From Bradyrhizobium ontarionense (lineage in GTDB: Bacteria > Pseudomonadota > Alphaproteobacteria > Rhizobiales > Xanthobacteraceae), in the NCBI RefSeq assembly GCF_021088345.1, contig NZ_CP088156.1:6687001-6751000 (forward strand): a stretch of DNA of 64,000 nt, given 5' to 3'. Position numbers and translations under genes: made by a program. The notes beneath the pieces are model-generated. The model ran no database searches. It had not been told where the DNA came from and was given only the letters and a program-made list of their open reading frames with translations. Of the stretch, positions 11,444 to 48,038 are shown piece after piece. The first letter of the stretch is position 1; each line of letters begins with the position of its first letter.

Positions 11444-11460
11444 GTGGTCGGAGAGGGCGT

Positions 11461-14400
11461 GTGAGCAGCCTAGACAGCATCACAGGCGTCTTCAGCTTGA
11501 GCCCTACGCAGCGGGGAATGCTGCTTGGCGTCGACGCGAGACGGGACCAGTCGGCACATATCGTCTGCTTTGCCTGTCGCCTGGCCGGCGAGTTGCGTCT
11601 GGCCGAATTCGAGCGCGCCTGGCGACGGGTGTTGCGACGCCACTCGATTTTGCGCACAGGTTTTAGTGGGGATGGCAAAGCAGAGATTTTCCAGTTCGCA
11701 CGCGCAGATGTCGATCTTCCGTTCGAAGTTCTCACTGACGGCCGGTCGCTCGACGCGTATATCGCCATCGACGGGCGACGCCGGTTTGATCTGGACCGTC
11801 CGCCGCTCATCCGGGTCGCTGTCCTGCTGCAAGCACCAGGTGCCGCCGAACTGGTGCTTACTCACCATCACGCGGTGATGGATGGCTGGGCGTTGCGTCA
11901 TATCCTTGACGAGGTCATGGCGTGCTACGGAGCGGAGTGCGCCGGCACCGAGCCCGAATTGCCGACGGCCGTACCGTTCAGCCGGTTCATTCGCTGGTGG
12001 CGGCGGCGCGACGCTGGGTCCGACTCATCATTCTGGCAACAAAGGCTCGCAGGGTTCAATGATCCGGTTCCGATCGGTGCCGCGAAGCGACCGACCGGGC
12101 CTGCCGATGGCTACGGCGTCAAGGATTGGCGGGGCACTCCGGATCTTGCTGACGCTGTTCGCCATTGTGCTCAGCGTCTCCGGATAACTCCGGCACTCCT
12201 GATGCAGGCGGCCTGGGCGCTGACGCTCGCGCATCTGAGCGGGCGCTCGGACATCGTGATCGGCGTGACCTCATCCGGCCGATCCGCCGGGTTCGATGGC
12301 GCTGATCAGGTTGTCGGGCCGTTGATGGTGACGCTTCCTCAGCGGTTTATTGTCGATGTGCGCGCCGACGTTGGAGCGTGGTTATCCAATGCGGCACGTG
12401 GCGCGCTTGATGCGGCCCAGTACGAGCACGCGGATTCGGTGGCGATTCGAGAAGCCGCTGCTGTTCCCGTCAGTCGCACGTTGTTCGAGAGCGTCGTGGT
12501 TGTACAGAATCTGCCAGTCGAGTCGGTACGATTGACTGTGGCTGGACTGACGCTCGATCTCTCCGACGTCCGCGTCGAAGGAGGTCAGGGCACATATCCG
12601 CTGGTGCTGTCTGTCTTTGCGGGCGAGGCGCTCGCCTTTCGATTGGTCTACAGCCGTGCCAGGTTCGATGACAGCGATCTCCCTGAGATTGTTCACGCAT
12701 TCGAGACCGCGCTGGTCCGGCTGTGCCGCGCTGCGAGCTCCACACTCGGCGAGGTTCTGCAGGGAATGCCCTCAGCGGCCCAGGGGCGCTGGATTGCGCC
12801 CGCCGCGCCAGTCTTCGTGGCGCCGATAGGACCCCTCGAATTGCAGATCGCGGAGGCGTGGCGAGACATCTTCAGGCGGCCGGTTGGGCGCGATGACGGC
12901 TTTCTCGATAGCGGGGGTAACTCAATTCTTGCGCTCGAGCTCGCAGCTTCGCTATCGCGGCGTCTGGGGTTCGAGATACCTCTGAAATGGATCTTTGAGG
13001 ATGGCTCCGTTGCTCGCCTCGCGGCGCGGCTCGAGGACCCGACCGAATTGACAGAGGCGGTGTCGCCGCTTGTTCCTGATGCCTCTAACCGGGAGCGGCC
13101 ATTTCCTCTGACCGAGGTTCAAAGAGCCTACTGGGTTGGGCGCGCACGCGGCTTCGAGCTTGGCGGGATCAATTCATTCACGCTCCTGGAAGTGGCGATC
13201 GGTCGGGTCGAGCCCTACGAGCTTGAAACAGCCTGGAATCGCTTGGTGGAACGGCACCCGATGCTACGGGCGGAACTGACGAGCGACGGACAGCAGCGGA
13301 TTCGCCCGACCGTTCCGTGGATGCCGCTCGGGCATCGCGATTTTTCGCACCTGTCGGGGACGGCGCTGGAGCAGGCCCAGCAGGAGTTGCGGAACGAGAT
13401 GCGCGGTCAGGTCGCGGATCCGACCCGCTGGCCGCTGTTCTCGCTATGCATATCAGAGTTCGCCGACGGTGAGCGGCGTCTCAATGTGGCATACGATCCG
13501 ATCGTCTGCGATGCCGGCAGTATCCGGCTGATCGCGAACGAATTGGCGATGCTGATTGCCGAACCGACCGTTGATCTGCCGCCTTTGGCGGTCGATTTCC
13601 GCGACTACGTGCTTGGAATAGGCCGGCTCCGCGATGGTCCGGCTGGCGCACGCGCCTCGGACTACTGGAACAGGCGGATCGATCAGTTGCCGGCGGCGCC
13701 GGAGCTACCCGTTGTACCGGGCCGGTCGGATGCCGCTCCGTGCTTCAAGCGTCGAAATGCGACGCTTCATGCGGATGCCTGGCTCCGGCTGCAGGCCAGG
13801 TGTCAGGAAGCCAGGATCACCCCCTCGGCGCTCCTGATGGCGATCTATGCCTCGGTCGTCGCGGACTGGTCCAGAACGCGCCATTTCGCTTTGAACATTA
13901 CGTTGTTCAACCGGGCGCCCCTGCATCCTGACGTAGCTCGTATGGTCGGCGATTTCACCTCGCTCACGCTTCTTGAGGTCGACTTGAGGCAAGTCCAATC
14001 GCTGGCCGAGCTGGCAGGCCGGATGCATACCCAGCTGTTGAACGATCTCGAGCATCGAATCGTCGATGGTGTCGAGGTCATGCGCCGTCTGTCGAGTCGC
14101 ACGGCTGCCGGTCAGCTGGTCATGCCGGTCGTCTTCACAAGTACACTTGGGCAACAGTCCCTCGATCCAGGAGGGACGACACCGATTGGTCACCTGGTTC
14201 AGGGATACGGGCAAACGCCTCAGGTCTATCTCGATTGTCAAGTCGGTGAGTGGGGCGGCGATCTACATTGCTGGTGGGATTGTCTGGATGAACGGCTGCA
14301 GCCGGGCGTCGCCGAGGATATGTTCGCTGCATTCAACGGCCTGCTGCAGCGACTGTCCGAGGACGTGGCTGCGATGGGTCGCATCCTGCCGGCCCTTATT

Positions 14401-17400
14401 CCACCAGCGAGCCTCGCGACACGTGCGCGAGTGAACGAGACGCGATCGCCGATCGCGGAAGACACGCTGGATCAGTTGTTTCTGCGAAGCGTCGAATGTG
14501 CTCCGGATGCGCCGGCACTCATCAGCCGGCATTCGGTCATGACCTATCGAGAGCTCGAACGTGCGTCCTTGGCGCTTGCTCTTCGGGTCGCCGAGACGGC
14601 CGGCGCCGCCGAACCAGTCGCCATTTTCGCAAAGCACGCCCATCCGCTGGCGATCGCGTCGATGGCGGTGCTGCGTGCAGGCAAGGCGTTTACCCGCATC
14701 GATCCGGCTTGGCCCTTGGAGCGGCAACGGATCGTGCTGGCCATCGCAGGCTGTCGGACGGCACTGGTCGATAGTGAGGCCGACATCGATTTGCCGGCCG
14801 ACATCGCTCGGATGCCGATACGATCGGAAACGATAGCAGATCCCGCACCGATCAGCAGTCGCGCGCCGGACTCGACTGCCTATGTGATGTTTACGTCCGG
14901 ATCAACCGGTACTCCAAAGGGAGTCACGATCACTCATCGTGCAGCAGTCAACACCATTTTCGACATCAACCGGCGTCTGACACTGACTCGTGACGATCGC
15001 GTCCTGGCCGTTTCGGCGGCAACATTCGACCTGTCGATCTATGATTTGTTTGGTCCGCTCGCGGTGGGCGGAACGATGGTTTGTATCGAGCCCGACGAGT
15101 GGCGAAATCCGCTGGCGTGGATGACGGCGATCGCCCGCCATGGTGTGACAGTGTGGAATTCTACTCCCGCACTGATGGAAATGCTGGTGGACCAGGCGGA
15201 ATCGGCCGGGCAACCGCGAAGCCTCGGGTCACTTCGCGCAGTTCTGCTGAGCGGCGACTGGATTCCTCTTGCGTTGCCGCAGCGAGTGCGGCGGCTTGCT
15301 CCGGAGGCATCCTGCATCGGTCTTGGTGGCGCGACCGAGGCCGCGATCTGGTCGACTTGGCATCCGCTCGACAAGGCTGAAGCCGAATGGTCAAGCTATC
15401 CGTATGGCGCGCCGCTTGCGAACCAGACGACCCATGTTCTCAATGAATGGCTGCAGCCGTGTCCCGACTGGGTTGCGGGCACGCTCTATATCGGAGGCGT
15501 CGGTGTTGCGACTGGCTATTGGGCGCGGCCGGACCTGACCGAAGCTGCCTTTATCGTTCATCCGGAAACGGGCGAGCGCCTGTTCAAGACGGGAGACCTG
15601 GCGCGCTTCCGGCCGGACGGAAAGCTCGAATTTCTCGGTCGGGAAGACGGACAAGTGAAGGTCCGCGGGCACCGGATAGAACTTGGAGAGATCGAGACGG
15701 CATTGGCCAATCACCCGGATATCCTGGCGGCCGTTGCTCTCGCCGATCGACGGGGCATTTCGGCCTACTGCGTCGGAAAGCCGGATCGCCAATCTCCGGA
15801 CTCGGATCGAATTCAACGGTATCTGACGAGCGCGCTGCCATACTACATGGTGCCCCGCGACATCCATGTCATCGAGACACTTCCTCTCACTGCGAACGGA
15901 AAGGTCGATCGGTCCGCGCTCGCCGCACTCGCCGTTCGGCCAGAGCCGAAGACTGGAGAGGCGAGGCGGATCGGAGAGCTGACGGAGATCGTCGCCACAG
16001 CCGCGGCGGGGCTGATCGGAATCGACACGCTGCAGGCGGACGACGATTTCTTCGCGGCCGGCGGAGACTCGATCTCGGGGACGCAGCTCATCGGGCGCCT
16101 GGGCGTCCTGACAGGCCGGACGATTGCGTTGCCGCGGCTGTTCGAGTTGCGCACGCCGGGCGCGATAGCGGAAGCTCTGTTGAACGAGGGTGCTGCAGCC
16201 GCGAGCGCGATCCCGCGACTTCCGGCTACGACAAGTGCGCCGGCCAGCATGGCCCAGCGCCGTTTCTGGCTGCTCGATCGTTTCCAGCCTGGTGACCCGC
16301 GCTATGTCATTGCCGGCTCGCTCGAGCTCCGCGGAGCGGTGGACATCGTTGCGCTCGCTGCCGCAGTCTCGGATCTCGTCACGCGTCATGAGCCCCTGCG
16401 GACCACCCTTGACGAAGTTGCCGGCGAGCTCGTCCAGATCATCCACGAGCCGCCCGAACGGCCGCTTCATATCTTCCAGGTCGCCGCGTCGGGCGAAGCC
16501 CTTGCAGCGCTTTTCCGCGAGTTCGCCTCGCTGCCCTTCGATCTGAGCCGGGAAGCTCCTGCCCGCTTTCGCTTGCTGCAGATCGCGCCCGAGCGCAGCA
16601 TCTTCCAGTTCTCAATCCATCATATCGCCTGCGATGCCTGGTCGCTCGGTGTCATCAGCGCGGACATTTCCCGTGCCTATGCCTTCCATCGGGGCAAGGC
16701 GCCGCCGCCTGCTGCGCTGTCGTTGCGATACGCCGATTTTGCCGGCTGGGAACGCCAGCAGATGCGCGGCGAACGAATTGCCGAGGCCCGCCGCTGGTGG
16801 GGTGCCCGCCTTACCGGACTTGGTTCCCAGAAACTGTCGATCCTGGCAGGTCCGACTCGGGAGCAGCATCGGGTATTTCCGGTCGAGCTCGACGAGCCGA
16901 CTTGCCGGCGTCTGGAGGGGTGTGCGACGCGAGCCGGCGCCACGCTTTATACGGTGCTGCTCGCGGTCTTCGCCGCCGCTCTCCGCGTACATGGCGGACG
17001 TGATGACATCGTCATCGCCAGTTCGGTATCCGGGCGCACGCACTCAGAGCTCGAAAATCTGGTCGGCTGTTTCATCAATCTCATTCTCATTCGCATCGAT
17101 CTGAGCTCTGCGCCATCGCTGGACGAAGTGGTCAAACGTTCGCAGGGCTTCATTGCCGGTGCATTGATGCGGCAGGACTTGCCTTTTGAGGAGATCGCTG
17201 CCGCCGCGCGGGCCGCCGGCGCGGGCGACGAATCGCCATACGTCGCGGTGTTCGTTCTGCAGAACACGCCGCCGGGCCGGATCTCATTGGACGAACTTGA
17301 GGTCTCGATGCCCGACCATTCGCTCGGGCTCAGCCGCTACGCCCTGCATCTGCACTTGCATCGGGCGGACGGTAAGTTGCGCGGAGCACTGAGAACGAAT

Positions 17401-17613
17401 GCAGAGATCGTCGGCCGAGGTTTGGGCGCTGAGCTTGCCGAGCTGTTCGCGCGACTCTGCGAGGCGGCATCGGCCGAGCCGGCCACCGCGCTGCAGAGTC
17501 TGCTTGAACGGATCGGCGGCGGGCAGACGCGTCGCCGTGTCCATCAGACCCGCTTGAACCGGATGCTGCGCACGCAGGGTAGTTCGCTGCAAGAGGTCGC
17601 CGACAATGAATGA
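11461..17613 (+). CDS. NRPS C-T-Cy-A(Cys)-T-C, thiazoline-forming
   Basis: 2050 residues from the GTG at 11461, which has GGAGAGG just upstream. C1 about 1-430 with HHHAVMDGW. T1 about 455-525 carries GGNS, with no A domain between C1 and T1. Cy about 545-985 is a heterocyclisation domain: it opens FPLTEVQRAYWVGR, has DPIVCDAGS (DxxxxDxxS in place of HHxxxDG) and PVVFTSTLG. A about 1000-1490 has intact core motifs, and its residues read D-L-Y-N-L-S-L-I-W-K, identical to the known cysteine code. T2 carries GGDS near 1534. C2 about 1580-2020 has HHIACDAWS and ends the protein without a carrier, so its acceptor must be on the next NRPS. The Cy-A-T unit should add Cys and cyclise it to a thiazoline. 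The hydroxylase gene overlaps by 8 bases. Confidence 0.93.
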   Translation: MSSLDSITGVFSLSPTQRGMLLGVDARRDQSAHIVCFACRLAGELRLAEFERAWRRVLRRHSILRTGFSGDGKAEIFQFARADVDLPFEVLTDGRSLDAYIAIDGRRRFDLDRPPLIRVAVLLQAPGAAELVLTHHHAVMDGWALRHILDEVMACYGAECAGTEPELPTAVPFSRFIRWWRRRDAGSDSSFWQQRLAGFNDPVPIGAAKRPTGPADGYGVKDWRGTPDLADAVRHCAQRLRITPALLMQAAWALTLAHLSGRSDIVIGVTSSGRSAGFDGADQVVGPLMVTLPQRFIVDVRADVGAWLSNAARGALDAAQYEHADSVAIREAAAVPVSRTLFESVVVVQNLPVESVRLTVAGLTLDLSDVRVEGGQGTYPLVLSVFAGEALAFRLVYSRARFDDSDLPEIVHAFETALVRLCRAASSTLGEVLQGMPSAAQGRWIAPAAPVFVAPIGPLELQIAEAWRDIFRRPVGRDDGFLDSGGNSILALELAASLSRRLGFEIPLKWIFEDGSVARLAARLEDPTELTEAVSPLVPDASNRERPFPLTEVQRAYWVGRARGFELGGINSFTLLEVAIGRVEPYELETAWNRLVERHPMLRAELTSDGQQRIRPTVPWMPLGHRDFSHLSGTALEQAQQELRNEMRGQVADPTRWPLFSLCISEFADGERRLNVAYDPIVCDAGSIRLIANELAMLIAEPTVDLPPLAVDFRDYVLGIGRLRDGPAGARASDYWNRRIDQLPAAPELPVVPGRSDAAPCFKRRNATLHADAWLRLQARCQEARITPSALLMAIYASVVADWSRTRHFALNITLFNRAPLHPDVARMVGDFTSLTLLEVDLRQVQSLAELAGRMHTQLLNDLEHRIVDGVEVMRRLSSRTAAGQLVMPVVFTSTLGQQSLDPGGTTPIGHLVQGYGQTPQVYLDCQVGEWGGDLHCWWDCLDERLQPGVAEDMFAAFNGLLQRLSEDVAAMGRILPALIPPASLATRARVNETRSPIAEDTLDQLFLRSVECAPDAPALISRHSVMTYRELERASLALALRVAETAGAAEPVAIFAKHAHPLAIASMAVLRAGKAFTRIDPAWPLERQRIVLAIAGCRTALVDSEADIDLPADIARMPIRSETIADPAPISSRAPDSTAYVMFTSGSTGTPKGVTITHRAAVNTIFDINRRLTLTRDDRVLAVSAATFDLSIYDLFGPLAVGGTMVCIEPDEWRNPLAWMTAIARHGVTVWNSTPALMEMLVDQAESAGQPRSLGSLRAVLLSGDWIPLALPQRVRRLAPEASCIGLGGATEAAIWSTWHPLDKAEAEWSSYPYGAPLANQTTHVLNEWLQPCPDWVAGTLYIGGVGVATGYWARPDLTEAAFIVHPETGERLFKTGDLARFRPDGKLEFLGREDGQVKVRGHRIELGEIETALANHPDILAAVALADRRGISAYCVGKPDRQSPDSDRIQRYLTSALPYYMVPRDIHVIETLPLTANGKVDRSALAALAVRPEPKTGEARRIGELTEIVATAAAGLIGIDTLQADDDFFAAGGDSISGTQLIGRLGVLTGRTIALPRLFELRTPGAIAEALLNEGAAAASAIPRLPATTSAPASMAQRRFWLLDRFQPGDPRYVIAGSLELRGAVDIVALAAAVSDLVTRHEPLRTTLDEVAGELVQIIHEPPERPLHIFQVAASGEALAALFREFASLPFDLSREAPARFRLLQIAPERSIFQFSIHHIACDAWSLGVISADISRAYAFHRGKAPPPAALSLRYADFAGWERQQMRGERIAEARRWWGARLTGLGSQKLSILAGPTREQHRVFPVELDEPTCRRLEGCATRAGATLYTVLLAVFAAALRVHGGRDDIVIASSVSGRTHSELENLVGCFINLILIRIDLSSAPSLDEVVKRSQGFIAGALMRQDLPFEEIAAAARAAGAGDESPYVAVFVLQNTPPGRISLDELEVSMPDHSLGLSRYALHLHLHRADGKLRGALRTNAEIVGRGLGAELAELFARLCEAASAEPATALQSLLERIGGGQTRRRVHQTRLNRMLRTQGSSLQEVADNE

Positions 17614-18661
17614 GCGCAAGCAATTTCCACTGTCGAGGCGGGCGCTCCCCAGGGCGCTGCCAACGGACCCATCGGGGCTGGTCGAGTATCACGATGAGGT
17701 CGACAGCGTTCCACTCCTGATGCTGTGCCCACGCTTCGACGGATTGGTGCTCACGCGATGGCTCGGCGAGAATGGACCGCTGCTCCGGGAACTGGTCACG
17801 AGGTCAGGCGCCGTTCTGCTTCGCGGCTTTTCAGATCCATCTGCGGAGGCCTTGAGCGCTGGCTTGAGCACCCTCGGCGACGGCCGTGGTCCCGAGGCGT
17901 ATGTCAATCGCTCGACGCCGAGGCTCTCTGTGGGCGGCAACATCTACACCGCGACGGAATACCCCGCAGACCGTGTCATCCCGCCCCATAATGAAATGTC
18001 GTATACGGCGCGGTGGCCGCTGTTCCTTGGACTCATGTGTGTGCAGCCTGCCGAGACCGGGGGCGAAACCCCGATCTATGACAGTCGGAAGGTGCTCGCA
18101 GCCATTCCGCAGGAGGTGCGGGAGGCCTTCGAGCGCCACGGTGTGCTGTATCTGCGGACGCTCGCGCCGGGCATCGATCTTCCATGGCAAGAGGTGTTCC
18201 AGCTCGACGACCCGGTCGCTGTCGAGGCGTTCTGCAACGAGCAGAATATCCGCTGCGATTGGCTCGATCGCGACACACTGAGGATCGCGGAATGTCATCC
18301 GGCCGTGCGACGACATCCGCGAACGCGCGAGGAGGTCTGGTTCAATCAGGCTCATCTTTTTCATCATCTCGCGCTTGGTCATGGAACTGCCCGGGTTCTC
18401 TCAAGTGCCGTCGGGGCAGACCGATTGCCGCGCGATGCGCAGTTTGGTGATGGGACCGCAATACCGGCCGACATGTTGGAGGCCGTCAAGGCGGCATATG
18501 CGGCCAGTGCCATGAGTTTCTTCTGGCAGCCGGGTGACATGTTGCTGTTGGACAACATGATGTTCGCTCACGCGCGCAACAGCTACGGCGGAAAGCGGCG
18601 TGTGCTGGCCGGGATGACTGCGTTTGTGGACGGCGTCAGATTGGAAGACTTCGATAGATGA
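17606..18661 (+). CDS. TauD/SyrP-like Fe(II)/2-oxoglutarate hydroxylase, probable aspartate beta-hydroxylase
   Basis: 351 residues, full length for the TauD/TfdA-like family. The metal triad is visible: His128 and Glu130 in PPHNEMSYT, and His322 in NMMFAHARNS; Arg332 in GGKRRVL is placed to bind 2-oxoglutarate. HxE rather than HxD is common in the SyrP-like branch associated with NRPSs. SyrP-type enzymes hydroxylate the beta carbon of aspartate held on a carrier protein. Context supports that role: the gene overlaps the preceding NRPS by 8 bases and the following NRPS by 4, and that following NRPS has an aspartate-type A domain preceded by a degenerate C domain. The AAGAGG ahead of the ATG suits this start. 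The stereochemistry and exact substrate are inferred, not shown. Confidence 0.85.
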   Translation: MNERKQFPLSRRALPRALPTDPSGLVEYHDEVDSVPLLMLCPRFDGLVLTRWLGENGPLLRELVTRSGAVLLRGFSDPSAEALSAGLSTLGDGRGPEAYVNRSTPRLSVGGNIYTATEYPADRVIPPHNEMSYTARWPLFLGLMCVQPAETGGETPIYDSRKVLAAIPQEVREAFERHGVLYLRTLAPGIDLPWQEVFQLDDPVAVEAFCNEQNIRCDWLDRDTLRIAECHPAVRRHPRTREEVWFNQAHLFHHLALGHGTARVLSSAVGADRLPRDAQFGDGTAIPADMLEAVKAAYAASAMSFFWQPGDMLLLDNMMFAHARNSYGGKRRVLAGMTAFVDGVRLEDFDR

Positions 18662-21600
18662 CCGGCATGACAAACAAGCTGGCTCGACTTGCTCCGCAGC
18701 AACGCTATCTTTCGGAAGCGTTTGCCGGCGCGGCGCCCGACAACGTGCCACGCGCGGTCATCGTGCTGGAGATCGAGGGCACATCTCCCTCCATCGAGGA
18801 TCTGAGGAGCGCCGCGAGCAGATTGGCCGCGCGGGCCGAAATCCTGCGAACCCGCTTTCAGGCGTTGCCGGGCCACTCCCTGCCGGTCCAGTCAATCGCT
18901 CCGGTTCTGTCGCCGGATGTCACGATCGGCGATGCGAGCGATCGTGATCCCCTCGCCACGATGTGGGAGTCGGCAATCGACCAAGAGTCATCTTCGCCTC
19001 TTGCAATTGTGCTTGGTAATGGACGTGTGGTGGTCAGATTACCAGCGCTCTGCGCAGATGCCCGCACGCTTGATCTTGTGACCGAGCTTCTGGTCTCTCC
19101 GTCAGCGGCTGGTGCCGTTCCGATCGAATTTGCCGAGGTCGCGGAGTGGCTCTGCGATTTCACGTGTGAACGCGCAGCCGCGGAGTCGGTGTGGTGGCAA
19201 GCCCGCGCATTCCCGACACCGCTGCTCCCGTTCGAGAGGCCGAGTACGCATCGAAACTTCATTGCGCTGCATTGGGCTGTGCCAAAGTCGCTCCACGAAC
19301 GAGTAAGCCTGCATGCTGGAAAGCGCGATGTTAGCGAGGAGGCATGCTGGCTCACCGCTTGGTGGATCGTGCTTGCGCGGATCGCGCAGGCAGGACTTGC
19401 GATTGCCGTCGAGTTCGATGGACGCCGTTACGATGGGCTGGAGGATTGTCTCGGACCGCTCGCGCGCCGTGCGCCGCTGGGGTGGGCCTATGACGGTCGT
19501 TTGTCGGTCGAGGAAATTGTCCGGGCGGTACAACGGGACCTTGAGCTGGGACGCGACCGCGTCGAGCATTTTGATCCGCGAAACGACGGTTCGCTTGGCC
19601 GGTTCGGCTTCGCGTGGCGGTCAGGGAAGGCCGTCTTCACAGGATCCGGACTGACGTTGCGGCCGCTGGCGCGAAGGATTCACGCAGGTCCATTCGCTGC
19701 GGACCTGTGCTTCGAGCACAGAACGGCGTCCGACCGGGTCACGCTGGACGCGACGCTTCTGATTGAGGCGGGTTCGATCGAAGCCGGGGCGGGCGAGGAG
19801 CTCAAGCGCCTCGTGATGGAGGCCGTCGCGGCCGTCGTCGAACAGCCGTCGGCAAGTCTGCAGGATCTGAGCTTTTCCGTTCGCAACGAGCCGGCAAAGG
19901 TCATCTCGCGGCCCGGCACTTTGCTCGAGTCTCTCGAGCATTGGGCGACAAGCACACCCGATCGTATTGCAGTTGTCGACGAAGCGGGTTTGCTGACGTT
20001 TGGCCAGTTGTGGGCCCACGGCGGGCGATTGGCAAACCGATTGAGCGCGTTGGGCGCCGGTCCCGAGCGACCGATAGCTCTTCTCATGGGGCGTAGCTCG
20101 GCAGCCGTGTTGGCGATGGTGGCGGCGTGGCGTTGTGGCGCCTGCTATTTGCCTCTCGATCCGATGCTTCCGCCCGCACGGCTCCAAACCATACTCAGAC
20201 AATTGCCGGTTGCGGCTTTGGTGGTCAGCTCCGAATATGCGGATCTTGTTCAGGGCGTCGACGTTGCCGTGCTTCGCCTGAACCGAGTGGAGCCGTCCCC
20301 CGACATGGTGACAGGTTCGTTGCCGCGATCGAATCCCGAGTCTTGCGCTTATCTGCTTTCAACGTCGGGATCGACGGGAGTTCCAAAGGTTGTGGTGGTC
20401 GAGCATCGCCAGCTGCACGCCTACGCGACCGCTCTGGTTCATCAGCTGAAGTTCGGTGACAGCTGGAAGTTCGGCATCGTGTCACCGTGGTTTGCCGACA
20501 TCGGCCTCACCATGCTGGCCGGCGCTTTCATCACCGGCGGCTCTCTTCACATCATGCCTGAGGCACGACTGCTCAATGCCGATGCGTTCGGTGCTTTCGT
20601 GCGCGACCATGGCCTGCAGTGCCTGAAGATCGTCCCGACTCACCTGCAAGCCTTGTTCGCCGGCCGCGAGACCGCCGACATACTTCCGAAGGAAATGCTC
20701 ATTCTTGGCGGCGAGCAGCCGGCCTGGTCACTGGTGCGGCAGATCGCTGCAATTGCACCGCGGCTCCGCCTGGTCAATCACTACGGCCCTACGGAGACCA
20801 CGGTCGGAGTCGTTACGGGCGAAATCGATCCTGCCGAAGCCGACCATCTGGCGCGCCCGATGCTTGGTCGTGCGTTGCCGAATGCAGACGTGCATATTCT
20901 GGACGAGAAACTTCGGCCCGTGCCGGCCTGGATGCCAGGTCAAATTCACATCGGCGGATTGACGGTCGCGCGGGGCTATGTCGGCGCGAGAGCGGCGACA
21001 GCAAGGGCATACCTGCCGGATCCGTTTTCGGAACGCGCCGGCAGCCGGATGTATGCGACCGGAGACATGGCACGTCGATGCCTTGATGGGCGCATCGAGT
21101 TTCTTGGCCGCTCCGACCGACAGGTGAAGATTCGTGGTCTTCGCGTCGAGCCGGACGAACTGGAAGCTGCGTTGCATGGGACGCGCGGCATTGCTCGGGC
21201 TGCCGTCGTCGTGCGAGGTGAACCGCCGTCCGGGCCGCGTCTGGCCGCCTATGTCGTGCTTGCGCCTGACCACCCGTTCGACGCGGCAGCTATTCGCCGC
21301 GAACTTGCGGACACATTGCCTTCCTACCTGCTGCCATCGAGTATCACGGCGATCGCTGACCTGCCCATGACCGCGTCCGGGAAACTGGACGTCGCGAGGC
21401 TTCCTGCTGAGACGAACACGCGCGGCGGCGCCCTCGCGACGCGGAAGGAGCGGGAAATCGGCGCGTTGTGGTGCGAAGTGCTCGGTACGACGTCAGTCGG
21501 TCGCGAAGACAGCTTCTTTGAGCTCGGCGGTCATTCGCTCGCGCTGGCGGAGCTGAGCCTTCTTCTTCGCGACAGGCTGGGGCTCGATTTTCCGCTGCCA

Positions 21601-21771
21601 GAACTCTTTCGGCATCCCACGGTGGCGGCGATGGCAAGGATGGCCGACAAGCAGGCCGGTCAGGATCGCACACGTGCCTTTGCGAAGGCTCGCAACCTGG
21701 CCGAACAGCGGCGCGTTGCGTTGACGCAGTTGGAAGAGCGTGCGGAAAAGAGCAAGGGGACAGCCACATGA
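18658..21771 (+). CDS. NRPS degenerate C (interface-like)-A(Asp)-T
   Basis: 1037 residues; its ATG overlaps the hydroxylase stop (ATGA). Residues about 1-410 have a condensation fold, but the active-site motif is replaced by PALCADA (near 129-135), so both catalytic His are missing. A about 425-935 has STSGSTGVPK, NHYGPTETT, YATGD and SGKLD. Its specificity residues read D-I-T-K-I-G-H-V-G-K, very close to the aspartate code DLTKVGHIGK, and the His at position 322 separates Asp from Asn. T carries GGHS near 958, followed by a charged helical tail. In siderophore NRPSs that make beta-hydroxyaspartate, a non-catalytic 'interface' C domain recruits the hydroxylase to the aspartyl carrier. The preceding NRPS ends in an active C domain, so the two proteins together form C-interface-A-T. 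Confidence 0.9.
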   Translation: MTGMTNKLARLAPQQRYLSEAFAGAAPDNVPRAVIVLEIEGTSPSIEDLRSAASRLAARAEILRTRFQALPGHSLPVQSIAPVLSPDVTIGDASDRDPLATMWESAIDQESSSPLAIVLGNGRVVVRLPALCADARTLDLVTELLVSPSAAGAVPIEFAEVAEWLCDFTCERAAAESVWWQARAFPTPLLPFERPSTHRNFIALHWAVPKSLHERVSLHAGKRDVSEEACWLTAWWIVLARIAQAGLAIAVEFDGRRYDGLEDCLGPLARRAPLGWAYDGRLSVEEIVRAVQRDLELGRDRVEHFDPRNDGSLGRFGFAWRSGKAVFTGSGLTLRPLARRIHAGPFAADLCFEHRTASDRVTLDATLLIEAGSIEAGAGEELKRLVMEAVAAVVEQPSASLQDLSFSVRNEPAKVISRPGTLLESLEHWATSTPDRIAVVDEAGLLTFGQLWAHGGRLANRLSALGAGPERPIALLMGRSSAAVLAMVAAWRCGACYLPLDPMLPPARLQTILRQLPVAALVVSSEYADLVQGVDVAVLRLNRVEPSPDMVTGSLPRSNPESCAYLLSTSGSTGVPKVVVVEHRQLHAYATALVHQLKFGDSWKFGIVSPWFADIGLTMLAGAFITGGSLHIMPEARLLNADAFGAFVRDHGLQCLKIVPTHLQALFAGRETADILPKEMLILGGEQPAWSLVRQIAAIAPRLRLVNHYGPTETTVGVVTGEIDPAEADHLARPMLGRALPNADVHILDEKLRPVPAWMPGQIHIGGLTVARGYVGARAATARAYLPDPFSERAGSRMYATGDMARRCLDGRIEFLGRSDRQVKIRGLRVEPDELEAALHGTRGIARAAVVVRGEPPSGPRLAAYVVLAPDHPFDAAAIRRELADTLPSYLLPSSITAIADLPMTASGKLDVARLPAETNTRGGALATRKEREIGALWCEVLGTTSVGREDSFFELGGHSLALAELSLLLRDRLGLDFPLPELFRHPTVAAMARMADKQAGQDRTRAFAKARNLAEQRRVALTQLEERAEKSKGTAT

Positions 21772-24700
21772 CGGACGGTCCGGCCATTCAGCACGGTGTC
21801 GCCATCGTCGGCATGAGCGCGCGTTTCCCCGGCGCGCCCGACATCGAGGCGTTCTGGCAGATGTTGTGTGCGGGACGCGAGGGCGTTCGGTTCTTTAGTG
21901 ACGAGGAGCTGATCGCACATGGTGCCCGGCCGGACGAACTACGGCACCCTCGCTACGTCCGCGCGGCTGCGCTGCTGGACGATCCCGACTGTTTCGATGC
22001 CGAATTCTTCAGCATCAATCCGCGCGATGCCGAGTTCATGGATCCGCAACAGCGCATCATGCTTGAGGTGAGCCATTCGGCGCTCGAGGACGCGGGTTAC
22101 GGGGACCCGGAGCAGCGTCCTGTGACGGGCGTGTTCGTGGGATCGAGCATGTCCCACTACGCGTTTCACGTTCATGATCTCAATCCCATTCGCGGGCCGT
22201 CCGGAACGATGCAGGCGTTCTTCGGCAATGCCGAGAGCCATCTCGCGACGAGAGTCAGCTTCAAGCTCGATCTTCGCGGACCGAGCATGTACCTGCAGAC
22301 GGCGTGTTCGACGTCGCTGACGACCGTGCACCTCGCTTGCCGTAGCCTGTTGTCGCGTGAATGCGACATGGCGCTTGCTGGCGGCGCTTCCATCACCGTC
22401 CCGCATCCGGCTGGCTACGTTCATGTCGAAGGCGGGATCTTGTCGCCTGATGGTCACTGCCGACCGTTCGACGCGGAGGCCGGCGGAACGGTGATCGGAA
22501 ACGGCGCCGGCGCTGTTGTCCTGCGCCGCCTTGAGGACGCGATTGCTGATGGCGATCGGATCCTGGCTGTCATTCTGAGCTCGGCCGTGAACAATGATGG
22601 CGCCGACAAGATGGGATACACCGCGCCTGGCGGGCCAGGCCAGGAAGCCGTCATCGCGGACGCATTGGCGCTCGCCGGAGTCGAGTCGTCGAGCATCGGA
22701 CTCGTCGAGGCTCATGGCACCGGCACCATCTTGGGCGATCCGATTGAGGTATCCAGTCTCAACGCGCTCTATCGCGGGGCTCCGGGAAGCTGTTTGATCG
22801 GCTCAGTGAAATCGAACTTTGGTCATCTGCTGGCGGCGGCCGGCGTGGCCGGCCTCATAAAGACAGTTCTGGCGTTGAGCCGCGGCTGCATTCCGCCAAG
22901 CATCAATTTCAGAAGCCCGAATCCGCGCATCGATTTTGCAGCAGGGCCGTTTCGTGTTGCAACCGGGGTGACGCCCTGGCAGGGCGGCCAGACGCCGCGC
23001 AGGGCATCCGTCAGCTCATTCGGAATCGGCGGCACGAATGTGCACATCGTGTTGCAGGAAGCCCCCGCACTGCCGCCGTCAGACGTGGAATCTCGGTGTG
23101 AGATATTGCCCCTCTCGGCGTCGAGCCCGGCAGCGCTGGCGAAAGCTGCTCAGGCTCTGTCGGATCGGCTGCTGGGCGCCGACGACGATACGACGCTTCA
23201 GGACGTCGCTTTCACGCTTCAGCAGGGCCGTCGCGCCCTGCCGTTCCGGCTTGCCGTCACAGCACGCAATCTCACCGAGGCGGCGGACCGGTTCCGGCAA
23301 TCGATCGGCCAGGCTACACCGGCTGCGGTGCGTCCAGGACCGGTGGCCTTCCTGTTCTCCGGCCAAGGCTTGCAGCGTCGTGGGATGTTCCGCGGGCTCC
23401 ATGCCAATTCCAAGTTCTTTCGACACTGGTTTGATCATTGTGCCGAGGTGCTGATTGCGGAAGGACTCGACTTGCGCCGGCTGATCATGGCCGAGAGCGG
23501 GCGAGAACAGGATCTTGAGCAGACCGCCATCACGCAGCCGGCGCTGTTTGCCGTCGAATATGCGCTCGCCCGCCAATGGATGGAATGGGGCGTCAAGCCG
23601 GAGATGGCCTTCGGCCACAGTCTCGGCGAGTATGTCGCCGCCTGCATTGGAGGCGTGTTCGCATTGGACGATGCTCTACGCCTGGTGGCCTTGCGGGGGC
23701 GTCTGATGCAGGCGCAGCCGCCAGGAGCCATGATCGCGATTCCGCTCGACGCGAAGGACCTGCGAAAGTTCGAGACCGATGCGATCGTGATTGCCGCGAT
23801 CAACGGCCGCCGGCGCAGCGTCATGGCCGGACCGGAACCCGACATCGTCGCGTTGGCCGAGCGACTGTCCGCAGGCGGAATTGCCGCGCGGCGGCTGCGG
23901 GTTTCTCATGCGTTCCATTCACCGGCAATGCGGCCGGCGGCAGCCGATCTGGCGCGAGCGATTTCGACCATCGAACTGAATCCGCCAACCCTTCCCATCG
24001 CATCGAGCGCATCCGGGACCTGGCTCTCGGCGGAGGAGGCGCAGGATCCGCAATATTGGGCAAATCAGCTGGTGATGCCGGTCGATTGCCTGACGGCTTT
24101 GGAGACGATCGCAAGCGAGGAGCCATCGGTCCTGCTCGAAGTGGGGCCGGGGAGCGCCTTGACCGGCTTTGCCCGCACGATCATGCCCGCCTCGGTGCGC
24201 TGCTTCGCTTCGGACGCCGGCGGTCTCGACAGTGAGGAACACTATGCAGAGTTGCTGGGCAAACTCTGGACGGCGGGTGCGCCTATCGAGTGGTCGAACC
24301 ATCATCAAGGCCGGCACCGTCGTCGGGTTTCGCTCCCGGGCCACAACTACGAACGCAAGCGTTATTGGATCGGCGACGGAGCTGTTTCGTCGGGCGCAAG
24401 GCCTGAGGCCAAGCCGACCGCGGCTGCAGCCAAGGAGGTCGGCGCACAGAGGTCCGACGACGTATCCGAATGGTTCTATGTTCCGTCCTGGCGCTTGTCC
24501 ATTGGGGCGTCCACGCTGAGTGAGGCGCGGCAAGGACAGGATTGGTTGATCCTCGCCGACCTCGGTGGGCTCGGGACGCGCATTGCCGAGCGGCTGCGGA
24601 CGCTCGGGCACCGCGTGGCTGTGGTGCACGCTGGTGTCGAGCCGGACCTCGCAGACCATACGTCGTTCGTCGTTCGTCCGGGCGTCGCGGCCGACTACGA

Positions 24701-27302
24701 TGCCTTGTTGCAGCGCATGCACCTCAATGGGCTGATGCCCGCGCAGATCATCTCGTTGTGGGGATGCGGTCCGCCCTCCAAGCTCTGTACGGACACGACC
24801 CTGTGTTTCGATGCGATGATCTTGCTGGCCCAGGCGCTGGGACGACGACAATCGGAAATTCGGCATTCGCTCGTGATCGTGTCCGAAGGAAGCCATCGGA
24901 TCACCAATTCCGAGGCGCTTTATCCCGAACGCGCTCTCGGTCTGGGACCGGCCAAGGTCATACGGCAGGAATTTCCGAACATTGCCTCACGCCACCTTGA
25001 CCTCGTCCCTTCGGATTGGACGGAGCCGGCGGCGCTGGATCGCCTGCTCGCGGAGCTTGCAGATCCGTTTGGGACGGAAGGCGGACGGATACGGGACCTT
25101 CGTGACGTCGTGGCTCTGCGCGGCATCGATCGCTGGATGCAGACATTCGAGAAGGTGAAGCTCGAGCGTTCCGAGCCGCCGCTGATCAGACGAGGTGTCT
25201 ATCTCATCACCGGCGGACTTGGCGGGATCGGTCTTGTGCTGGCCGAGCGACTGGCCACCCAGTGTGAAGCGCGCCTGATATTGACGTCCCGCTCGCCTTT
25301 TCCTCCTCGCGAGAAGTGGGACGAACTCTCGCGAGAGTCCGGCCACGACGGTCCGTTTGCCACGCGCATCGCCAGCATTCGGCGCCTCGAGGCGGCAGGC
25401 GGTTCGGTGCGGGTGATCCAGCTCGATGTTACCGACGTTGCGGCCGTCGATCGAACGGTCCAGGAGATCGTTGCGGAGTTTGGCGCGCTGAACGGAGTGA
25501 TCCACGCCGCCGGTTCGGCCGGGGGAGGGATGATACAGCTGAAGGAGCTGGGCGCGGCGCACGCGGTCTGCGCTCCGAAGGTTCAGGGCACCCTGGCCTT
25601 GCACCAGGCCCTGCACAAGGTCGATGTCGACTTCCTGGCGCTCTGCTCGTCGCTCACCTCTGTTCGAGGTGGTCTAGGCCAGGTCGACTATTGCGCAGCC
25701 AACGCGTTTCTCGACGCGTTTGCGCAGTCGTGCGCGACGACGCGCGGCAAACGGCGGACGATTTCGATAAATTGGGGAGCATGGGCGGAGGTCGGCATGG
25801 CGGTCGCGGCTATCAGGCGCCATGGCTTCCTTCCTTGTCCGTTCTGGCTCCGCCAGAAGTCGAGCAACGAAGGAGCGGCCTTGAGCCACCCCATGCTCGA
25901 CCGAATCTTGATCTCCGGTGCCGACGAACGGGCGGTGAGGGCCCGCCTGCGCCCCGGCGAGCTCTGGGTGCTTTCGGAGCATCGTCTCAACGGCCGGCCC
26001 ACGATGCCGGGTACCGGGCATCTCGAACTGCTGAGGGCCGCGTGGGCCGCAATTTCCAGCAACGAGGCTCTCGAATTCCGCGACGTCAGCTTCAAGGTCC
26101 CGCTCTCGGTCGCCGACGGTGCTGCGCCCGAGGTTCACGTCCTCACAGAGTCAAATCGCACCGCCGGGAAGATCAGCGTCGTCACCCAGGTCGGTGGCGG
26201 CGACAGTCTTGTCGAGCATGTGTCGGCCAACGTGCGTCCTGTCGGCGAGATCGCTCCCATCATCACCGACATCAATGCGCTGTTGGCACGGCTCACGCCC
26301 TTTGATCAGGCGCCGGCGGCGCCGCGCCGGAGTACTCTCACGTTCGGGCGTCATTGGGACTTGCCGTCTCGGGTCTATGTCGGCAATGGAGAAGTCGTCG
26401 CCGAAGTGATGCTGCCAGAGACGTATGCCGCCGAGCTCGACGCATTCTGGCTTCACCCATCACTGCTCGATGTTGCGCTGGGAGCGGCCAAGCTCCTGAA
26501 CAGGAGCGATGTCCCGATGCTCCCGTTTGGCTATGCGCGGCTTCGGCTTCTGGCGAGGTTTCCGGGGCGCATCTTCTGTCATCTGCGCGCGCGGCCTCAG
26601 GACGCGGCGTCGCGGATATTTGCAGTCGACGGATCGGTCATGGCGCCGGATGGAACGGTGCTCGCCGAATTCGAGAACTGCCAGTTCCGGGTGGCCGATT
26701 CGAGGGAGGGCGGTGAGTCCACTCGAACGCAGTCGGCAAACAGCGACGTGGTCGACGTGCTTGCCGGCGCAATTCGTTCGGACGAAGGCGCAGAGGCGTT
26801 CGTTCGTGCATTGGCATGCACAACGCCTCAAATCGTCGTATCCGCCTTGGATCTGGATGCCGTGATCGCGAAATGGCGCGATCAGGAGCAGTCGATCGTG
26901 GAGCGGGTCGCCAAGGCCGAGCTTCCGCGCCCATCGACGATACTGGGTGGTGATGCAAGCGCACCGAAGCCTGCCGGCGACGTTGAGACCCAGATATCGG
27001 ACATCTGGCGAGACCTGCTTGGCCATCCGCAGATAGGCCGCGACGACGATTTCTTCGCGCTCGGGGGCGACTCGTTGCTCGGAATCCAGCTTCATGCACG
27101 CATGCAGGACTTGTTCAGGATTTCCATCACCCTCGCGGCGGTGTTCGAAAACCCGACCATTGCTGCCCTCGCGAGGATCGTATCTGACAAGAGCAGCGGC
27201 GGAAGCGCGTCGCACGAGATGGATCCGTCGATGATGCCGATCATTCCGACGAAGACCAGAGCCATCGAGGACATACTCGGAGAGTTGCTTGACAATGCGT
27301 GA
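21768..27302 (+). CDS. Type I polyketide synthase KS-AT-KR-DH-ACP
   Basis: 1844 residues; the ATG overlaps the previous stop (ATGA). KS about 10-435 with TACSTS, EAHGTGT and SNFGHL. AT about 525-810 is active-looking, with FSGQG, GHSLGEY and HAFHS, the last typical of malonyl-CoA specificity. KR about 900-1350 with TGGLGGIG and VDYCAANA. DH about 1380-1600 with HRLNGRPTMP (HxxxGxxxxP) and LHPSLLD. ACP near 1735-1800 with GGDS. This is the only intact AT seen in the window and could also load the first PKS in trans. As in the first PKS, KR precedes DH. The module should extend the aspartyl intermediate by a malonate unit, reduce it and dehydrate it to an alkene. The next gene overlaps the stop by 8 bases. 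Confidence 0.94.
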   Translation: MTDGPAIQHGVAIVGMSARFPGAPDIEAFWQMLCAGREGVRFFSDEELIAHGARPDELRHPRYVRAAALLDDPDCFDAEFFSINPRDAEFMDPQQRIMLEVSHSALEDAGYGDPEQRPVTGVFVGSSMSHYAFHVHDLNPIRGPSGTMQAFFGNAESHLATRVSFKLDLRGPSMYLQTACSTSLTTVHLACRSLLSRECDMALAGGASITVPHPAGYVHVEGGILSPDGHCRPFDAEAGGTVIGNGAGAVVLRRLEDAIADGDRILAVILSSAVNNDGADKMGYTAPGGPGQEAVIADALALAGVESSSIGLVEAHGTGTILGDPIEVSSLNALYRGAPGSCLIGSVKSNFGHLLAAAGVAGLIKTVLALSRGCIPPSINFRSPNPRIDFAAGPFRVATGVTPWQGGQTPRRASVSSFGIGGTNVHIVLQEAPALPPSDVESRCEILPLSASSPAALAKAAQALSDRLLGADDDTTLQDVAFTLQQGRRALPFRLAVTARNLTEAADRFRQSIGQATPAAVRPGPVAFLFSGQGLQRRGMFRGLHANSKFFRHWFDHCAEVLIAEGLDLRRLIMAESGREQDLEQTAITQPALFAVEYALARQWMEWGVKPEMAFGHSLGEYVAACIGGVFALDDALRLVALRGRLMQAQPPGAMIAIPLDAKDLRKFETDAIVIAAINGRRRSVMAGPEPDIVALAERLSAGGIAARRLRVSHAFHSPAMRPAAADLARAISTIELNPPTLPIASSASGTWLSAEEAQDPQYWANQLVMPVDCLTALETIASEEPSVLLEVGPGSALTGFARTIMPASVRCFASDAGGLDSEEHYAELLGKLWTAGAPIEWSNHHQGRHRRRVSLPGHNYERKRYWIGDGAVSSGARPEAKPTAAAAKEVGAQRSDDVSEWFYVPSWRLSIGASTLSEARQGQDWLILADLGGLGTRIAERLRTLGHRVAVVHAGVEPDLADHTSFVVRPGVAADYDALLQRMHLNGLMPAQIISLWGCGPPSKLCTDTTLCFDAMILLAQALGRRQSEIRHSLVIVSEGSHRITNSEALYPERALGLGPAKVIRQEFPNIASRHLDLVPSDWTEPAALDRLLAELADPFGTEGGRIRDLRDVVALRGIDRWMQTFEKVKLERSEPPLIRRGVYLITGGLGGIGLVLAERLATQCEARLILTSRSPFPPREKWDELSRESGHDGPFATRIASIRRLEAAGGSVRVIQLDVTDVAAVDRTVQEIVAEFGALNGVIHAAGSAGGGMIQLKELGAAHAVCAPKVQGTLALHQALHKVDVDFLALCSSLTSVRGGLGQVDYCAANAFLDAFAQSCATTRGKRRTISINWGAWAEVGMAVAAIRRHGFLPCPFWLRQKSSNEGAALSHPMLDRILISGADERAVRARLRPGELWVLSEHRLNGRPTMPGTGHLELLRAAWAAISSNEALEFRDVSFKVPLSVADGAAPEVHVLTESNRTAGKISVVTQVGGGDSLVEHVSANVRPVGEIAPIITDINALLARLTPFDQAPAAPRRSTLTFGRHWDLPSRVYVGNGEVVAEVMLPETYAAELDAFWLHPSLLDVALGAAKLLNRSDVPMLPFGYARLRLLARFPGRIFCHLRARPQDAASRIFAVDGSVMAPDGTVLAEFENCQFRVADSREGGESTRTQSANSDVVDVLAGAIRSDEGAEAFVRALACTTPQIVVSALDLDAVIAKWRDQEQSIVERVAKAELPRPSTILGGDASAPKPAGDVETQISDIWRDLLGHPQIGRDDDFFALGGDSLLGIQLHARMQDLFRISITLAAVFENPTIAALARIVSDKSSGGSASHEMDPSMMPIIPTKTRAIEDILGELLDNA

Positions 27303-28752: not shown

Positions 28753-28793
28753 GCCAGGTCGTGGCGCATGGAGTGTGGGGTGGGAGGCGCGTC

Positions 28794-29666
28794 GTGGAAG
28801 GGAATAGCGGGAAGGGCGCAGTGCACACGATCTCAGAACACGGCTGTTTCGGGGGTACGGTCGGATTCTACTCGCATCTTTCCGAGGCGGTTGGCCTGAA
28901 GATGACTTTCTCAGTATATCGACCACCGCAGGCGGCGAAACGGCGGGTGCCATTCCTCACCTTTCTCTCCGCGCTGCTCTGCAATCATCAGAATTTCATG
29001 ATCAAGTCGGGGGCGCAGAGGGTGGCCGCCGAACTCGGGTTGATGCTTGTCATCCCGGACACAAGTCCGCGCGGGGCAGGCATTCCCGGTGAGGACGCCG
29101 ATTGGGAGTTTGGGGCAAGCGCGAGCTTCTTCGTGGACGCGACTCAGGAGCCGTGGTCGCGTCACTATCGAATGTATACTTACGTGACGCAGGAGCTCCC
29201 CCAGCTCATTTGCGCGCATTTCGCGGCGGATCAGCGAAGGCAGGGGATCTTCGGTCATTCGGTCGGAGGGAATGGCGCGTTGGTTTGCGCGTTACGTAAC
29301 CCCCAACAGTATCGTTCGGTTTCGGCATTCGCCCCGGTCGTCGCTCCCAGCCAGGTCTCGTCCGGACAAAAGGCGTTCTTGGGATATCTCGGTCCGGACC
29401 GGTCGCGGTGGGCTGAGTATGACGCTTGCGAGCTCGTGAGGCAGCGGCCCTATCCCGGCACGATTCTCATTGATCAAGGAACTGCCGATAAGGCATTGGC
29501 CGGACACCTGCGTCCTGACCTCTTCGAGGCGGCGTGCAAGGAGGTCCGTCAGCCACTGAGCCTGCGCATGCAGGATGGCTACGACCATGGGTTCTATTTC
29601 ATCTCGACCTTCGTAGAGGACCACCTTCGTCATCACGCACGGGAACTTGCTCATGTCGCTGAGTGA
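28794..29666 (+). CDS. S-formylglutathione hydrolase-like esterase
   Basis: Alpha/beta hydrolase of the FghA/esterase D family, about 290 residues. Family signatures are clear: EHGCFGGTVGFYSH at the start, IPDTSPRGAGIPG, HYRMYTYVTQELP, GHSVGGNGAL with the nucleophile Ser, an acidic residue in DQGTADK and the His in DGYDHGFYF. Enzymes of this family normally hydrolyse S-formylglutathione in formaldehyde detoxification, next to an alcohol dehydrogenase; here there is none, and the gene sits inside an NRPS/PKS operon. A role as stand-alone thioesterase, releasing or proofreading carrier-bound intermediates, is a reasonable inference. Deviations such as SALLCNHQNF in place of the usual SGLTCTxxNF hint at changed specificity. 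Start codons are all GTG (28761, 28773, 28794, 28821); 28794 is preferred for the GGGAGG before it. Confidence 0.85.
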   Translation: MEGNSGKGAVHTISEHGCFGGTVGFYSHLSEAVGLKMTFSVYRPPQAAKRRVPFLTFLSALLCNHQNFMIKSGAQRVAAELGLMLVIPDTSPRGAGIPGEDADWEFGASASFFVDATQEPWSRHYRMYTYVTQELPQLICAHFAADQRRQGIFGHSVGGNGALVCALRNPQQYRSVSAFAPVVAPSQVSSGQKAFLGYLGPDRSRWAEYDACELVRQRPYPGTILIDQGTADKALAGHLRPDLFEAACKEVRQPLSLRMQDGYDHGFYFISTFVEDHLRHHARELAHVAE

Positions 29667-29892
29667 GGACTGCGGGATCGGCGCCGGCCTGATGCAGCAA
29701 TATCAGTCGCTGATCTCGGACCATGAGTGGACGCGATCGGCCCGCGACAATGAGAGTGGAGCGGAAGTCCTTCCATGGAAATTGAATCGTGCGGCGAGGG
29801 TGATGCGATGGCCAGCAGGTCTGCGACGGGCATTGCCGATGAGTCGGGCCAGTCTCCAGGCATCGATCGTTCGGTTGGAGGACAGACCATGA
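29653..29892 (+). CDS. Small ORF of unknown function, translationally coupled
   Basis: 79-residue ORF (MSLSEDCGIGAG at the start, VRLEDRP at the end) that fills the only sizeable gap in an otherwise overlapping operon. Its start overlaps the esterase by 14 bases and its stop overlaps the decarboxylase ATG by 4 (ATGA), the same style of junction as at several neighbouring genes. It is not MbtH-like and I recognise no family; the C-terminal half is basic. The ribosome binding site is weak. Reality as a protein is uncertain; it may only serve translational coupling. Confidence 0.4.
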   Translation: MSLSEDCGIGAGLMQQYQSLISDHEWTRSARDNESGAEVLPWKLNRAARVMRWPAGLRRALPMSRASLQASIVRLEDRP

Positions 29893-32130: not shown

Positions 32131-32354
32131 TTTCTGTCACTAGCAATTTAAGGTTGTAATTTTCCTGTCGACGCTGTTCGGCCTCTAGCGCGGCGCTACA
32201 GGGGTGATTTGCTCGATCTGCCTTTCGCAAGGAATCAGACGTAGTCGCTGTCGGACTTGAAGGGTTGGCTTCGTCCAGCTGGACATGCCACGCGCGCGAA
32301 GAGTACAATCTCCAGGAGCAAATTTCAACGAAAACTTACTTCGGTTGTTGCGAG

Positions 32355-46947: not shown

Positions 46948-47104
46948 CCATTCGTCCTTCGCGCCGGGTCGATGTCGGTAGCCTAGTTGCGGACGGCCTG
47001 CGCGAGGACGACCGAAACACCCGAATGGACGTCACATCTCTCCGCTAAATGGGCATGTTGGACAAAGTGCCAACAGCGACCTGCGCGTGGTTCGAGAGCG
47101 TTCG

Positions 47105-47851: not shown

Positions 47852-48038
47852 TTTTTCAGATCAACGGCTTGCCGGATGGTCCGCCCCCCGGCGCGCGGCG
47901 GCGGCATTGGCCGTCCATTGGCCGAATCTCTTTCGGTGTCGGCCCCGATCAATCGTCTGTTTACCAGTGAGCCGAGCCGCGGCGGCCGCGTCCATGACGC
48001 GCGCCTGCAGCGAGCGCGGCGGAAATCAGGAGCGAACG

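Follow-up and report, generated by a model that had tools for sequence, protein, structure and literature searches.

Do three overlapping genes of Bradyrhizobium ontarionense, in which a hydroxylase gene is enclosed between two genes for nonribosomal peptide synthetases (NRPSs), form a single station for the production of beta-hydroxyaspartate, and does the degenerate condensation-like domain which opens the second synthetase belong to it? The genes lie in a stretch of 64,000 nucleotides (contig NZ_CP088156.1 of assembly GCF_021088345.1, positions 6,687,001 to 6,751,000 of the forward strand), referred to here as the window, and coordinates are those of the window unless otherwise stated. Our analysis indicates that they very probably constitute one functional unit which makes beta-hydroxyaspartate by means of a non-catalytic, interface-like domain. 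A literature search of limited range found no paper on this cluster. The features on which the argument turns, with condensation (C), adenylation (A) and carrier (T) domains abbreviated, are:

16234..17490, + strand: C domain at the C-terminus of NRPS 11254-17613, with HHIACDAWS (motif at residue 1789; best PF00668 stretch residues 1661-2079)
17606..18661, + strand: stand-alone Fe(II)/2-oxoglutarate (2OG) hydroxylase of the TauD family, with HNE (H128, E130), H322 and R331 (PF02668)
18658..21771, + strand: NRPS of 1037 amino acids (aa), interface-like domain followed by A(Asp) and T (Pfam, A code)
18658..19902, + strand: interface-like domain of the C superfamily, residues 1-415, without catalytic histidines (homologues, trees, structure model)
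19042..19062, + strand: PALCADA at the place of HHxxxDG, residues 129-135 (alignment)
19927..21408, + strand: A domain with the aspartate code DITKIGHVGK (PF00501/PF13193; code)
21454..21642, + strand: T domain with LGGHSL (PF00550, residues 933-995; motif)

On the + strand NRPS 11254-17613, hydroxylase 17606-18661, NRPS 18658-21771 and a polyketide synthase (PKS) gene, 21768-27302, follow one another without gaps. The first two overlap by 8 bp (ATGAATGA) and each of the following junctions by 4 bp (ATGA in both). An original prediction, made from the sequence alone, had described a C domain at the end of the first NRPS, a hydroxylase gene overlapping both NRPS genes, a C-like start of the second NRPS in which HHxxxDG has become PALCADA, and an A code near that of aspartate; each of these was found again. 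The C domain which ends 11254-17613 scores 375 bits against our C model and 190 against the model for interface (I) domains (L001).

In the mechanism that we propose, the A domain of 18658-21771 would activate L-aspartate and load its own T domain. Residues 1-415 would form no peptide bond and would hold the separate 2OG hydroxylase, presumably by physical docking, against the aspartyl-loaded T domain, where the enzyme would add a hydroxyl group, in all likelihood at the beta carbon of the bound aspartate and before condensation. The C domain ending 11254-17613 is expected to join the upstream chain, assembled on a heterocyclisation (Cy)-A(Cys) module, to the (hydroxy)aspartyl-T, and PKS 21768-27302 would then be expected to extend the hydroxyaspartyl intermediate. 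Beta-hydroxyaspartate as the predicted product is in keeping with the Asp code, the placement of the interface-like domain and the precedent of cyanochelin B discussed below.

The start of 18658-21771 reaches 18.6 bits against the Pfam Condensation model, under the cut-off of 30.6, and PALCADA has no His at either position of HH and retains the Asp. The structure model of residues 1-415 (mean predicted local distance difference test, pLDDT, 89.2; predicted template modelling score, pTM, 0.90) has a C-domain fold. Among 68 proteins with an interface-like domain, our own included, the domain always begins no later than residue 35, all 68 retain the Asp, none has HH and 50 read LCAD; Asp134 and Arg256 are invariant across the aligned I domains, including those of actinobacteria. 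The nearest relatives are P0122, 59% identical over the domain, and, for the hydroxylase, P0002 (68% identical); both lie on contigs 164,895 bases long, presumably, given the equal size, a single contig.

A first tree contained, besides the window's own domains, at most 16 C and 9 epimerisation (E) domains from 27 chosen loci; two of its rows had been taken for E by their motif but clustered with C, and we treated them as C from the next tree onwards. In that tree, of 64 rows, the interface-like domain and P0122 stood with 28 I rows on one side of a branch supported at 100/100. Forcing the window pair among the C rows cost 45.8 log units (approximately unbiased, AU, test, p 1.8e-5) and among the E rows 40.1 log units (p 0.0035); both placements were rejected and the degenerate domain, as had been anticipated, is distinct from ordinary C and E domains. 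Scores for the window against our first I model were circular, because the window was among its seeds (49 of the 68 rows, 19 longer than 480 aa having been dropped). Hidden Markov models (HMMs) built without the window and P0122, on I rows picked earlier with the window-seeded model, gave it 171.7 bits to I and 23.3 to C, with no listing for E. Taken together, it shows a C-superfamily fold, has lost HHxxxDG, lies directly before A(Asp) with a hydroxylase in the cluster and groups apart from C, E and Cy domains.

Several observations weigh against this assignment. The window-free I model scores ordinary C domains of the window much as it does the interface-like domain (win27_C 173.6, winN3_C3 165.3), and a 12-row cyanobacterial I model prefers them (158.3 and 126.4, compared with 109.1). 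With P0122 set aside, the domain shares 15-28% identity with I domains in alignments and 23-32% in local matches; it sits on a long branch, and a test between a position nested in the other I rows and one sister to them did not decide (p 0.279). The reference I rows are themselves defined by model and context, and the model that selected them had the window among its seeds. Finally, the hydroxylase stands in the best tree outside the branch of the characterised subtypes, the T-type, CcsK, fused and His rows lying across a 96/83 branch from it, and a tree joining it with all named types was not rejected (AU p 0.278). The argument for interface identity rests on the contrast in the C model, which gives the window's ordinary C domains 423.0 (win27_C) and 293.6 bits (winN3_C3) and the interface-like domain 23.3, and on the tree.

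One alternative is that the N-terminal domain is a decayed C domain and that the hydroxylase recognises the T domain directly, as stand-alone enzymes of the TbH_Asp type do. The window enzyme is likewise stand-alone and the same genome holds an interface-free unit of this sort (hydroxylase L002, described below). Nevertheless, we consider this explanation unlikely: mere decay is countered by the invariance of Asp134 and Arg256, by the retention of the Asp in 68/68 and of LCAD in 50/68 relatives and by the placement in the tree; domain and hydroxylase keep 59% and 68% identity with their nearest relative; the T motif is GGHSL, not GGDSI; and the best tree places the enzyme away from the T-type clade.

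The hydroxylase that would be recruited is an intact TauD-type protein (PF02668, E-value 5.5e-41) which carries the HxD/E...H iron ligands and the 2OG arginine of TauD-type Fe(II)/2OG oxygenases. We take H128, E130 and H322 to be the ligands and R331 the arginine; H128, E130 and R331 are invariant and H322 nearly so in our alignments (A1 and A4). In the PDB, the best match to its model (mean pLDDT 88.9) is the structure of At3g21360 (1y0z), a clavaminate-synthase-like protein. In a tree of 53 of the 103 available rows it forms one clade with P0002 and P0003 (100/99), whose sister is a three-row actinobacterial group (97/83). All seven loci of this actinobacterial kind read I-A(DLTKVGHVGK)-hydroxylase, and the enzyme falls, as had been supposed, among NRPS-linked hydroxylases. 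Joining it with the CcsK rows alone was not rejected (AU p 0.305); in the best tree they are separate. A recent survey mentions several unreported clades of such hydroxylases (PMC12971057).

It is conceivable, and in our judgement about as improbable as a decayed C domain, that the hydroxylase carries out another 2OG chemistry on the same T-bound aspartate, such as desaturation or a second oxidation, or that it acts only after condensation. Enzymes of its fold class perform varied chemistry, and its lineage is uncharacterised and sits on a long branch, but those Asp-linked relatives whose product is known, CcsK and MobD, are assigned to beta-hydroxyaspartate. A prediction of the configuration at the beta carbon was dropped: the rule quoted in PMC12628792, by which fused hydroxylases give S and self-standing ones R, conflicts, for a stand-alone enzyme with an interface domain, with the rule by interface subtype, and the tree leaves the subtype unsettled.

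The aspartate assignment itself draws on evidence of a different kind. Because the search scored residues 1-415 only, the A codes found beside the interface-like domain are independent of it: 46 of the 68 (own included) are of Asp type (..K.GH), 8 of Asn type, 3 of His type (DSVLIAEVFK) and 5 of SSRD..MGIK type, with 6 others. The window code DITKIGHVGK differs by one conservative change from DLTKIGHVGK of the Asp-specific CcsL, which argues for aspartate and not another amino acid, and the related DLTKVGHVGK is listed with characterised hydroxyaspartate in tistrellabactin (PMC10391617). That the A domain loads Asn or another amino acid, or that the hydroxylase modifies some other residue, is highly improbable in spite of the Asn-type codes in 8/68 relatives, the window code showing the Lys and His typical of Asp codes, whereas Asn-type codes have Glu in place of the His, and the nearest hydroxylase relatives adjoining Asp codes in 7/7 loci. 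The SSRD..MGIK-type codes, which lack the usual first Asp, stand beside interface-like domains in P0125, P0131, P0144, P0154 and P0168 and in loci L053 and L089. A survey of the A codes which accompany this domain (Asp, Asn, His and a few unexplained) should aid product prediction.

How widespread the arrangement is was approached through 80 named loci with 93 hydroxylase genes (the best 80 of 577 confirmed), in which loci cut short count as misses. An I domain lies within 2.1 kb downstream of 45 of the 93 genes, a proportion which does not reflect frequency in nature, the loci having been chosen by likeness to hydroxylases, several of them already with an I neighbour. A C domain within 600 bp upstream accompanies 41 of these 45, the hydroxylase being stand-alone in 33 and fused to that C domain in 8. 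In seven more genes the I domain precedes the hydroxylase, and 41 have neither arrangement. A codes obtained for 36 of the 45 comprise 27 Asp, 5 His, 2 Asn and 2 of SSRD type. The order C, hydroxylase, I occurs in cyanobacteria, actinobacteria (L028, L038) and Pseudomonas and, in fused form, in Chloroflexota (L077) and on a Variovorax plasmid; in an acidobacterial locus (L089) there are a hydroxylase and an I domain, with no C domain visible. The original prediction had pointed to the split of the set over three genes in assembly order. The order is as it stated; the split is not unusual, as cyanochelin B and the 33 of 93 genes illustrate.

In samples nearer to home, I-domain matches at an E-value of 1e-5 were found in 3 of 398 genomes of the phylum, own included; in one of the other two (G186) an I domain comes after a hydroxylase, and the second (G413) was rejected, its score being 209.6 as C and 131.6 as I. 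A match to the window hydroxylase at 1e-40 is present in 31 of 195 genomes of the genus (own included). No close ortholog was seen in this sample, the best outside the own genome being 47% identical with one internal TGA. A different arrangement, C-H-H-I, was observed in another species of the genus (G487, contig 291, L105), where a C-domain end fused to a hydroxylase is followed by a stand-alone hydroxylase and then an I domain.

The B. ontarionense genome contains two further hydroxylases of this kind, at 107 kb and 5.885 Mb. The former (L002) is 39% identical to the window enzyme and grouped with a Tistrella enzyme (98/98 in the 53-row tree). It is located beside genes for a TonB receptor, a PepSY protein, a thioesterase and an NRPS with C-A(DLTKIGHVGK)-T(GGDS) and an E-type domain, and no domain of the NRPS of this unit scored best as I. 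This cluster (G000:C1:101430-121000; L095, L096), of T-type by the tree, is probably a beta-hydroxyaspartate siderophore cluster. Interface-free and interface-dependent recruitment could thus be compared within one organism. The 5.885-Mb hydroxylase stands before C-A(DAYWVGGTFK). The label of siderophore cluster is unsupported for the window: PF00593 (TonB receptor) is absent from it and from the 38 kb past its end, the nearest of the 18 PF00593 places in the genome being at 6,789,130 (38 kb beyond the window) and, on the lower side, at 5.957 Mb.

The genes immediately around the Asp module supply two further features:

13096..15903 (boundaries approximate), + strand: Cy domain (DPIVCDAGS, motif at residue 748) and A domain (DLYNLSLIWK), the module before the Asp module (tree; code)
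21768..27302, + strand: PKS of the next module, with ketosynthase (KS), acyltransferase (AT), ketoreductase (KR), dehydratase (DH) and acyl carrier protein (ACP) domains (Pfam)

By motifs and Pfam NRPS 11254-17613 has the order C-T-Cy-A-T-C. Its Cy domain pairs in the tree with one other Cy-type row, and we read DLYNLSLIWK as a cysteine code; given the Cy-A(Cys) module, the upstream chain probably carries a thiazoline. The protein opens with C-T without an A domain ahead of this module (11254-13000).

Other genes were noted on either side. PKS 1107-6974 has KS, KR, DH-like and ACP domains, with no acyltransferase found by Pfam. The esterase 28761-29666 was tried as a Fes-like enzyme and rejected, being an S-formylglutathione hydrolase (NCBIfam TIGR02821, 421.6 bits). 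The pyridoxal phosphate (PLP) decarboxylase 29775-31349 resembles diaminobutyrate decarboxylase and aspartate 1-decarboxylase PanP, although its scores of 137.8 and 124.7 bits, respectively, fall far short of the cut-offs, and NRPS 32265-37160 has a degenerate A-like stretch and then a full A domain with the code VDFSSSIADK, which we take to resemble a beta-alanine code. Frame 47087-47851, with weak STN and TonB_2 matches below their cut-offs, is located just before a 4744-aa frame (47907-62141) with two-partner secretion (TPS) and filamentous haemagglutinin domains; after the latter, on the opposite strand, lies a sigma-70 family factor (62364-63029). Upstream of the window (G000:C1:6656592-6687669) there are more NRPS/PKS genes and, on the other strand, an NRPS frame of 4424 aa that contains a KR domain. 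Two genes of the radical SAM type also lie there, one HemN-like and one of 494 aa which extends into the window.

Of the closest known systems, that of the iron-binding compound cyanochelin B, encoded on a plasmid in the cyanobacterium Leptolyngbya sp. NIES-3755 (AP017310.1), is a characterised precedent. Here too an NRPS ending in a C domain (BAU16063, probably CcsJ, a name we supply by inference; HHLILDGWS at 587) is followed by the stand-alone TauD hydroxylase CcsK and the I-A(Asp) NRPS CcsL, which starts with PSLCADA and has the A code DLTKIGHVGK; the gaps between the genes are 21 and 3 bp. The account in PMC12628792 describes CcsK as self-standing, CcsL as Asp-specific and the compound as a hybrid PKS-NRPS product with a thiazoline and two threo beta-hydroxyaspartates; the word "interface" does not occur in its main text. 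Like CcsK, the window hydroxylase is stand-alone and lies between C and I-A(Asp). The two systems differ in that CcsL continues with T(GGDS)-E after its A domain whereas in the window T(GGHS) ends the NRPS and a PKS gene follows, in that the thiazoline of cyanochelin B is not adjacent to beta-hydroxyaspartate in the residue order given in PMC12628792, and in sequence. The hydroxylases are 44% and the I domains 26% identical.

Interface domains, with the hydroxylases IbH_Asp and IbH_His, were reportedly described by Reitz et al. (2019, PNAS) as non-catalytic domains standing before A(Asp or His), IbH_Asp being said to be fused to the C-terminus of an NRPS. The window resembles this type in its non-catalytic C-superfamily domain before A(Asp) with a partner hydroxylase, but the latter is a separate gene and so lies outside IbH_Asp in that sense. 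Pseudomonas loci with a His code and the Variovorax C-hydroxylase-I-A(Asp) locus also resemble the IbH types; the Pseudomonas rows share only the Asp of PALCADA and the Variovorax row its Leu, Ala and Asp. Profiles for the interface domain are included in antiSMASH 8, according to its description (PMC12230676). Enzymes of the TbH_Asp type, for example MobD of tistrellabactin, are like that of the window stand-alone and work with an A(Asp) module; in PMC10391617 TbH is described with a GGDSI carrier, a description which the L002 unit fits but the window, with GGHSL and an I domain, does not. X domains of glycopeptide antibiotic synthetases supply a functional parallel: in 4tx3, one of our fold matches, such a C-like domain is bound to OxyB, a separate oxygenase. 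X domains recruit P450s.

The hydroxylases nearest in the tree are those of uncharacterised actinobacterial clusters with I-A(Asp)-T and a hydroxylase (L024, L026, L029, L033, L067, L074, L083). As in the window, three of these (L024, L026, L033) show a Cys-type A domain (code DLYNMSLIWK) and a C domain immediately ahead, with a Cy domain identified by tree in L024 and inferred for L026 and L033. In these clusters, however, the hydroxylase gene comes after the I-A-T gene and in the window before it, and the motif is PRMSMDA (L024) or PRLSMDG (L029) instead of PALCADA; the I-domain tree unites the two groups weakly (77/74). By Pfam, a single open frame in L033 encodes the I-A-T protein, and a frame ahead of it carries AT, Condensation, AMP-binding and carrier domains; the C-ending NRPS is separated from the I-A-T gene by a DUF6817 frame, and downstream there is a gene of the Aminotran_5 family. 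It is possible, although we put this forward tentatively and would not yet call it probable, that the window pair, P0002/P0122 and the actinobacterial clusters represent a separate, unnamed lineage of interface-dependent Asp hydroxylases in which a thiazoline is followed directly by beta-hydroxyaspartate (window, L024, L026, L033), perhaps in products that are not siderophores, and in which hydroxylase and interface domain co-evolved while the hydroxylase gene was free to lie on either side.

A divergent, fully separated three-gene unit of this type should help to establish whether hydroxylase recruitment really depends on the non-catalytic domain. The division into C, hydroxylase and I-A(Asp)-T is already known from cyanochelin B and from the 33 of the 93 genes surveyed, and the window unit is a distant new example of this known station. 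The novelty that remains is its divergent lineage, in a setting where Cys, probably as a thiazoline, precedes Asp.

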